Below, piece after piece: positions 49,524 through 51,303 of a stretch of DNA of 64,000 bases. Location: assembly GCF_003991425.1 (NCBI RefSeq), contig NZ_CP034346.1, forward strand, positions 4,005,501-4,069,500, written 5' to 3'. The position numbers were made by a program, and so were the translations under genes. Source of the stretch: Paenibacillus lutimineralis (GTDB taxonomy: Bacteria; Bacillota; Bacilli; Paenibacillales; Paenibacillaceae). The notes below the pieces were generated by a model. It was not told where the DNA came from. It saw nothing but the letters and a program-made list of their open reading frames with translations, and did not search any database. The stretch's first letter is position 1. The number at the start of each line of letters is the position of its first letter.

Positions 49524-49552
49524 TTGACATTTCTAAGAGAAACTTCTACGAT
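49524..49552 (+). promoter_or_regulatory. Sigma-A promoter of comM
   Basis: Consensus -35 TTGACA (49524-49529), 17-bp spacer, -10 TACGAT (49547-49552). Transcription would start near 49559, giving a leader of about 150 bases. Confidence 0.8.
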
Positions 49553-49584
49553 ACGATCAAAGCATAGTTCGGAAAATATGGAAG

Positions 49585-49710
49585 CACCTTTTTTCCCTCG
49601 ATAAGGCGCCATTGCCAGGCAACTGGTATCAAATGAAGGTTCGTAAGTTGGGCTAAGCACTCAGCTTACTACTGAACCTCCTTATTATGGAAAAGGGGTG
49701 TTTTTTTGTT
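49585..49710 (+). promoter_or_regulatory. Structured, riboswitch-like 5' leader of comM
   Basis: Closing helix P1: CACCTTTTTTCC (49585-49596) pairs over 12 bp with GGAAAAGGGGTG (49689-49700), which is the comM ribosome site and is followed by T7. P1 extends through GATAAGG (49600-49606) with CCTTATT (49680-49686). Inside are P2 (49608-49627, CCATTGC/GCAA-C-TGG) and P3 (AGGTTC/GAACCT plus ten further pairs, 49637-49679) joined by ATCAAATGA. It matches no riboswitch class I recognise. Confidence 0.6.
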
Positions 49711-51303
49711 ATGTCCATGTACGGGAAGCTTTATAGTGCCTGTCTATACGGTATCGACGGAGTATTGATTGAAGTAGAAGTGGATCTGTCCAGCGGGATT
49801 CCCCAGGTAAATCTGGTTGGATTGCCTGATTCCGCCGTACGAGAGGCCGTGGAAAGAGTGCGCTCGGCGATCAAAAACTGCGGCTATACCTTTCCGCTGC
49901 AAAGGGTCACGATAAATCTTGCACCGGCCGATCTGCGTAAGACGGGCAGTGCATTCGATCTCGCCATTGCACTCGGACTCTTGGCAGCAAGTGAGCAGAT
50001 CCGTCTACCGGAGGAGGAGCACCTGCTTATTCTCGGCGAGCTCTCGCTCGACGGCACGCTTCGTCCAGTTCCTGGAGTGTTGGCTATGGTCGATCTGGCG
50101 ATGAAGCAAGGCTTCACCTCTGTGCTACTGCCTAAAGACAATGCACCAGAAGCGATGCTGCTGGATGGAATTCATGTTTATGGACTTAGGCATTTACAGG
50201 AGTTGGATCCAGAGGGGTTCACCGATAAAAAGGGCATACAAGCTCCCTTGCATCTATCTTCTTTATCCCATTTGCAAATTCATCATGATCATCCGGTAAC
50301 AGTCGAGGAGCCAGTATTGTTTCCGCCACCTACCGAGGACTACAGCGATGTGCTTGGACAGCAACATGTCAAGCGAGCGCTGACGATCGCAGCAGCAGGC
50401 ATGCATAATATCGTCCTGATCGGCCCCCCAGGTACTGGCAAGACGATGCTCATTCGCAGACTGCCCACAATTCTCCCTCCTCTATCCCAAGAGGAAGCTC
50501 TGGAAGTTACGAAAATTTACAGCTCGGCTGGCAAATTAAAAGGCAGTGGGGGCGACTTAATGAGCACCCGTCCTTTTCGTTCGCCACACCACACTATTTC
50601 GGGGGCTGGACTCATCGGCGGCGGCAGCATACCGAGGCCGGGAGAAGTCAGTCTCGCTCATCACGGTGTCTTATTCTTGGATGAGCTGCCCGAATTTTCG
50701 CGAGGTGTTCTGGAGGTGCTGCGCCAGCCACTGGAAGAGCGCGTCGTCTCGATAAGCAGGTCGCGGGCTTCTTTTACCTTTCCAGCACGATTTCTGTTGG
50801 CTGCTTCATTGAATCCGTGTCCCTGTGGGTTTTTCGCGGCTGAACCGCCGCTTCCACCATGTACCTGCAGCCCGGCCAGAATCGCTCAGTATCGTGAGAA
50901 GATATCCGGCCCACTGTTGGACCGTATCGATATGCATGTTGAGGTGCCACGTCCAGCCAATTGGCAAAGCGATGTCCAGCCTTTATCCTCAGCTGAGATG
51001 CGTGTCGCCATTGAGAGAGCTGAAGCGATCCAGCTCAATCGATATCGTAATTACACATTCACCCGTAACAGTGAATTATCTGGCCGGATGTTACGTAAGT
51101 TCGCCCCGCTTGACGCTGCAGCGAGCCGCTTGTTGGAGGCTTCGTTCGAGACGCTAGGGCTCAGCATGCGCGCCCATGACCGGATCATTAAGTTGGCCCG
51201 TACAATCGCTGATCTGGAGGGCTCGGACCGTATCATATCCGCCCATATTGCCGAGGCGATCCAATATCGTCAGTTAGATCGGCGCAGGGTTGAGACCGTG
51301 TAA
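49711..51303 (+). CDS. comM: ComM/YifB family Mg-chelatase-like AAA+ ATPase
   Basis: Hexameric helicase-type ATPase; ComM promotes branch migration during transformation in Gram-negatives. N-terminal Lon-like domain (YSACLYGIDGVLIEVEVDL, GLPDSAVREAVERVRSAI), Walker A GPPGTGKTML, Mg-chelatase core with a four-Cys-type motif near NPCPCGFF. About 530 residues. Although ATG 49687 is in frame, AAAAGGGGTG at 49691-49700 places the start at ATG 49711. It is transcribed opposite to its neighbours. A transformation role here is inference; dprA nearby fits. Confidence 0.93.
   Translation: MSMYGKLYSACLYGIDGVLIEVEVDLSSGIPQVNLVGLPDSAVREAVERVRSAIKNCGYTFPLQRVTINLAPADLRKTGSAFDLAIALGLLAASEQIRLPEEEHLLILGELSLDGTLRPVPGVLAMVDLAMKQGFTSVLLPKDNAPEAMLLDGIHVYGLRHLQELDPEGFTDKKGIQAPLHLSSLSHLQIHHDHPVTVEEPVLFPPPTEDYSDVLGQQHVKRALTIAAAGMHNIVLIGPPGTGKTMLIRRLPTILPPLSQEEALEVTKIYSSAGKLKGSGGDLMSTRPFRSPHHTISGAGLIGGGSIPRPGEVSLAHHGVLFLDELPEFSRGVLEVLRQPLEERVVSISRSRASFTFPARFLLAASLNPCPCGFFAAEPPLPPCTCSPARIAQYREKISGPLLDRIDMHVEVPRPANWQSDVQPLSSAEMRVAIERAEAIQLNRYRNYTFTRNSELSGRMLRKFAPLDAAASRLLEASFETLGLSMRAHDRIIKLARTIADLEGSDRIISAHIAEAIQYRQLDRRRVETV

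Follow-up and report, generated by a model that had tools for sequence, protein, structure and literature searches.

The comM gene, which encodes a YifB-family AAA ATPase, lies on the forward strand of the 64,000-nucleotide stretch of Paenibacillus lutimineralis DNA analyzed here (the window) and is preceded by a leader whose features are listed in Table 1. The gene opens with an ATG at 49711, and a second ATG at 49717 agrees with the start of its homologues. The initial annotation had described this leader as a three-way junction transcribed from a nearby promoter, with a closing helix, P1, that captures the ribosome site. The promoter is present at the place proposed, and the start predicted from it lies upstream of all P1 bases; a start downstream of 49596, which would leave the 5' strand of P1 out of the mRNA, is not indicated.

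Table 1. Features of the comM leader and gene, in positions of the window.
Feature	Position	Strand	Basis
Sigma-70-type promoter, TTGACA-17-TACGAT	49524..49552	+	10/12 consensus matches; start at about 49559 predicted from spacing
Alternative hairpin PA, GGAAAA (49571-49576) with TTTTCC (49591-49596); GGAAGCACC in the loop; excludes P1	49571..49596	+	Truncated folds, comM-leader covariation
Conserved element GGAAGCACC (regulon consensus GGRRGNACC)	49580..49588	+	Sequence comparison; absent from the initial annotation
P1 5' strand, putative terminator left arm	49580..49596	+	Predicted fold, covariation
Variable interior: GATAAGG/CCTTATT inner helix, P2 and P3	49600..49686	+	Predicted fold; common only to the window and two close relatives
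P1 3' strand; 49689-49700 is GGAAAAGGGGTG, including the comM Shine-Dalgarno sequence	49689..49705	+	Predicted fold, covariation
T7 tract of putative terminator, 3 nt 5' of the ATG	49701..49707	+	Sequence, predicted fold
comM, YifB-family AAA ATPase	49711..51303	+	TIGR00368, 568 bits; Pfam

The segment 49560-49730 (171 nt) was predicted to fold at -57.1 kcal/mol compared with a mean of -42.4 (sd 3.8) for shuffled sequences, a z-score of -3.85, and none of 200 dinucleotide shuffles folded as well. The twelve-base pairing proposed earlier, between CACCTTTTTTCC (49585-49596) and the segment at 49689-49700, is recovered in this fold together with the inner helix (49600-49606 with 49680-49686) and the helices P2 (49613-49618 with 49623-49628) and P3 (49637-49652 with 49660-49679). 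P1 extends further than previously described: the T-tract is paired as well, with GGAAG at 49580-49584, which brings the helix to 17 bp. The T7 tract follows the Shine-Dalgarno segment as had been stated, and in the joint ATCAAATGA, described as unpaired, the first base is paired in the predicted fold. When the leader was folded at increasing lengths, PA was found to form first and P1 once position 49703 was reached.

Comparison of comM leaders indicates which of these parts are conserved. Both comM and an upstream GGA[A/G]GCACC were found in all forty genomes of the same genus. The comM start was parsed by script in 38 of them, where the 9-mer is GGAAGCACC in 36 leaders and GGAGGCACC in two and where GGTG and a T-rich tract occur just before the start codon in every case; the remaining two genomes (G054 and G018) were inspected separately and both have the element. 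Among named genomes, surveyed at eighty comM loci of which one had too little upstream sequence, the 9-mer was observed at five of five Paenibacillus loci and at none of 74 others. The long interior with P2 and P3 is common only to the window and two close relatives (L002 and L033); in these three leaders 125-135 nt separate the 9-mer from the T-tract compared with 45-74 nt in the other 77 script-classed comM leaders. Judged from this comparison, it is not the three-way junction that is conserved in the leader; the conserved part is GGAAG-N-ACC, the 9-mer with which the 5' strand of P1 opens. The proposal that the junction forms the functional core was therefore not borne out: a conserved junction with an invariant joint was not found, with P2 and P3 confined to three close relatives, and we rejected a junction riboswitch as unlikely for this reason. 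A leader peptide, suggested by the frame ATG GAA GCA CCT in the window, was also rejected as the ATG is missing in many relatives. Additional copies of the leader adjoin comM at three loci (L245, L246, L247), some of them followed by short comM frames.

The element is switch-like and has no Rfam family match, in agreement with the earlier view that it belongs to no known class. A search of the whole window with the Rfam 15 covariance models at the gathering threshold returned tRNA only, and the comM leader gave only sub-threshold matches at E values up to 10.

Conservation and covariation had been named as the checks on P1 to P3; they were found for P1. In an alignment of 64 leaders of mixed genes (A1), 93.4% of the cells of a 16-bp P1 helix are paired, compared with 54.9-68.3% when the strands are slid by one to three columns, and 105 double-change cells were counted against 31 in shuffles; these figures inform the inner seven pairs only, as the pattern by which the leaders were selected already fixes GGTG-Y-TTT and every base of the 9-mer except the fourth. 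Five doubtful leaders (L186:128, L201:759, L242:4978, L261 and L239) and three of 80 nt or longer, including that of the window, had been dropped beforehand, and the remaining 101 were reduced to 66 non-redundant leaders of which 64 were aligned (L238 and L262 were left out). P1 is thus, on the evidence of covariation, a terminator-like helix that would also hold the comM Shine-Dalgarno sequence. The suggestion that one helix could both terminate transcription and mask the ribosome site is supported, with P1 conserved, covarying and placed in the leader downstream of the promoter.

The alternative hairpin PA, absent from the initial annotation, is formed by bases flanking the 9-mer. Taking the most favourable of three registers, 31 out of 39 non-redundant comM leaders form at least five of its six pairs, a number that none of 5000 permutations reached (mean 22.5, maximum 30). 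In a single fixed register 73.9% pairing was observed with 31 double changes against 14 in shuffles; since leaders differ in register, pairing is slightly higher (77.8%) in one of the slid registers. Outside comM the hairpin is unsupported (26 leaders, -1.70 compared with -1.48 when permuted, sd 0.33), and we rejected PA as a general feature of the leader. The position of the recA promoter leaves no space for it.

The leader was searched for with sequence patterns and with a covariance model, R1, whose training set contained no HRDC or comEC leader from the genus. R1 missed the comM leader of the window because its interior is too long, and the comEC leaders with GGAAGAACC were missed by both the initial patterns and the model and recovered by manual reading. 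A relaxed pattern was run against 398 genomes from the class. Within the order Paenibacillales it matched each of the 38 members, with 185 matches compared with nine for the reversed pattern, whereas outside the order 95 of 360 genomes had a match compared with 69 for the reversed pattern. The 39 genomes of the genus gave 205 matches against 15 reversed-pattern matches. A stricter pattern matched 223 of 392 genomes in a sample of the order, with zero controls among the matches listed. The element is concentrated in Paenibacillales, with a few copies outside. These include one comM leader with the 9-mer (G476, family f15, L282), five matches in one genome (G616), with three GGAAGCACC copies on a single contig (C23), and terminator-like copies before other genes in two genomes (G511 and G597; L265 and L266). 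A motif exclusive to comM, as suggested by an initial pattern in which the bases after the 9-mer were fixed, was rejected when later searches found other genes. A 45-mer, GGAAGAACCACC...GGTGGTTCTTTT, was observed upstream of a MocR-type regulator at the two loci read (L400 and L401) and in f21 and f32 genomes; it was set aside, as similar copies occur in other families and it looks like a different element. No description of the conserved element was found among the matches listed in searches of the open-access literature.

Among the other genes behind the leader, comEC was present in 39 of 39 genomes. Fetching comEC loci by protein placed the leader at 29 of the thirty loci read, the thirtieth (L389), which has masked bases, giving no leader match. 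The 9-mer is GGAAGAACC in 23 of these leaders, GGAAGCACC in three, GGAAGGACC in two and GGGAGCACC in one; position 6 changes together with its pairing partner, so that the other terminator arm matches. In the genome of the window the comEC leader lies about 134 nt before a ComEC match at 1979839 (G000:C1), and its T-tract is short (GGTTCTTTG). The recA leader of this genome, at 3958508-3958555, lies between a cinA-like sequence and recA (both named by eye), with recA beginning about 1.3 kb downstream; a recA leader was also read in a second genome (G045). At L398 and L402 about 1-1.3 kb separates the leader from recA, and no long forward gene is obvious in that interval. The short comEC T-tract, the distance to recA and the interrupted T-tracts of some comM leaders (G009 and G039) all count against reading the leader as an attenuator.

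Further leaders in the same genome precede a gene for an HRDC-domain protein (4696850-4696887) and one for a secreted coiled-coil protein (579551-579601; gene named by eye), and the genus pattern search gave four matches in this genome, one of them at 6268152. Position 6 is C in the comM, HRDC and coiled-coil leaders and A in those of comEC and recA. Thirty distinct HRDC proteins were found among the loci retrieved by leader; the HRDC domain was matched with an E value of 2.9e-15, and matches to solved structures were only to the HRDC regions of RecQ and WRN. Tad pilus operons occur behind the leader at a minimum of 14 loci in relatives. At one of them (L236), Pfam and NCBIfam models identify a T2SSE ATPase, two T2SSF proteins and a ParA/CpaE-like ATPase, with the TadA-family model below cut-off. 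The anatomy is promoter, GGAAGNACC, putative terminator and gene, giving a conserved stem and U-tract between promoter and gene as in a terminator-attenuator; promoters other than that of comM were judged by eye and none was evident before comEC. Some copies precede genes without an evident link to DNA exchange, which counts against a regulon.

Rfam searches of the HRDC, comEC, recA and coiled-coil loci of this genome, and of one Tad and one further comEC locus, had as their sole match a SAM riboswitch at another place in L327 (2050-2171, in the genome of the window), where a homoserine O-succinyltransferase-like frame lies on the same strand. At three loci (L240, L241 and L242) the leader precedes an uncharacterized protein (HNMYFYNR...; 232 aa and without a Pfam match in L241), followed in some of them by a large membrane-like protein. 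Proteins of 58-80 aa with a similar pattern were observed near the leader at four others (L251, L255, L294 and L295), and the three tested had no Pfam match.

Mobile elements, megaplasmids among them, also carry the leader. Conjugation operons of the TrbC/PrgI type were found behind it (PrgI above the Pfam cut-off, TrbC just below), a 518-kb replicon of one genome (G006) has 16 copies, and pART37 has five within 49 kb, including one that an annotated TrbC/VirB2 gene closely follows. Five Paenibacillus-like viral contigs have the leader, in some cases with a NucA/NucB-type nuclease next; the one nuclease tested scored 24.0 bits against a Pfam cut-off of 23.8 (E 5.7e-5). Eight of the 13 viral-contig matches were dropped because they resembled chance hits or hits in coding sequence, and a phage collection gave no match to one prophage-type leader. 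All 16 leaders of the 518-kb replicon (L404-L416, G006:C2) have [TCA]AA[TC]N[GA]AATA, placed 19-21 nt upstream from GGAAG. Scored with a weight matrix built from this box, the sequence upstream of the HRDC and comEC leaders (0 of 200) and of comM (2 of 200) exceeded shuffles, and that upstream of Tad did not (42 of 200); the box is possibly a second recognition box or a signature of the start site.

As the leader stands before comEC, recA, DNA-pilus and plasmid-transfer genes, it may be how DNA uptake is turned on. We consider it probable, with moderate confidence, that comM carries one copy of an attenuator shared by genes of DNA uptake, recombination and transfer, kept off by termination and Shine-Dalgarno masking and relieved by a trans-acting factor at GGAAGNACC. 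An intrinsic terminator with a left arm starting GGAAG-N-ACC would, by default, halt transcription downstream of the promoters of these genes, and in comM P1 would hide the ribosome site as well. When DNA exchange is needed, presumably in competence, the factor would bind the 9-mer in the nascent transcript and block pairing of the left arm, so that transcription, and in comM translation, could continue; PA, with the 9-mer in its loop, would be the competing fold in comM. A factor recognizing GGAAGNACC throughout a regulon fits better than a junction riboswitch. Recognition appears, from the alignments, to need GGAAG and ACC, with position 6 serving pairing, since position 6 varies between genes and the other arm varies to match. 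The HRDC protein is a candidate only for the relieving factor, put forward because its gene has the leader, in the genome of the window and in related ones, and its domain is of a nucleic-acid-binding type. Considerably more tentative is the wider proposal that one RNA switch and one factor, possibly the HRDC protein, turn on DNA exchange across Paenibacillales, and that viruses and megaplasmids adopted the leader to couple their nuclease and transfer genes to it.

The leaders could instead be constitutive attenuators that do no more than keep basal expression low for DNA-exchange genes, which are costly, and that are not relieved in a regulated way; GGAAG would then tune terminator strength by forming weak G-U pairs with the U-tract. 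GGAAG can indeed pair with the T-tract (columns 1-5) and no relieving factor was found. We regard this as unlikely, as all 29 comEC leaders reached by protein begin with GG, the comM leaders have a covarying alternative hairpin, and 38 of the forty R1 matches selected for reading begin GG[A/G]AGCACC, a start that the model favours (the two exceptions, TGAAGCACC and AAAAGCACC, are weak). A1 is uninformative on the GG because the search pattern fixes positions 1 and 2.

RfaH, a NusG paralogue, is recruited at the ops sequence, and GGAAGNACC might similarly be recognized at the DNA level or by polymerase during elongation, with the terminator being the first of several that are then ignored. The early position of the 9-mer in the predicted transcripts, its occurrence before Tad and conjugation operons and the long distance to recA would suit such recruitment of a NusG-family protein. 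The probability we give it is low: the 9-mer is itself the left arm of the terminator, its position 6 covaries with the other arm, which fits direct RNA competition, and its distance from the -10 box varies (8 nt in the recA leader of the genome of the window, 27 nt in comM). Least probable, and very doubtful in our estimation, is a small antisense RNA that pairs with the element through GGUNCUUCC; the conserved nine-nucleotide loop of comM is typical of kissing targets, but within a single genome position 6 is not the same for every gene.

A leader common to comM, comEC, recA and Tad operons offers a concrete handle on the control of natural transformation in Paenibacillus, and a leader reporter could be used to screen for inducers and for the relieving factor. 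Reportedly, P. polymyxa has comEA, comEC, comGA, comC and tadB/tadE and lacks comGB, comGC and comFA, and the condition inducing uptake was left to future work (PMC8370563). Transformation of Micrococcus luteus reportedly requires a Tad locus (PMC6668835).

Several known systems resemble the proposed attenuator in part. The conAn system of pLS20 and canT of Tn916 likewise bring antitermination to DNA-transfer operons; as described in the accessible portions of these reports, they are processive and bipartite or have a 452-nt active fragment, with no comparable 9-mer terminator described there (PMC8955417, PMC11658703). The LoaP-dependent dfn and mln leaders of Bacillus velezensis also combine an RNA hairpin with an intrinsic terminator relieved by a protein, but LoaP reads a UNCG-tetraloop hairpin apart from the terminator (PMC12691694), whereas the 9-mer of the comM-type leader is the left arm of the terminator. 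The fold predicted for the comM leader of the window has no UNCG loop. In the RAT of BglG/LicT systems, a small hairpin overlaps the 5' arm of the terminator and the two folds are mutually exclusive, as are PA and P1; the RAT sequence and gene context differ, and in the comM-type leader the stem varies, the loop is fixed and the hairpin occurs only in comM. ComK, ComX and TfoX coordinate uptake and recombination genes as this leader may do, acting at promoters, whereas the leader would act, if at all, after initiation. To our knowledge competence regulons are set at promoters, and control of competence at termination would, if true, be unusual.
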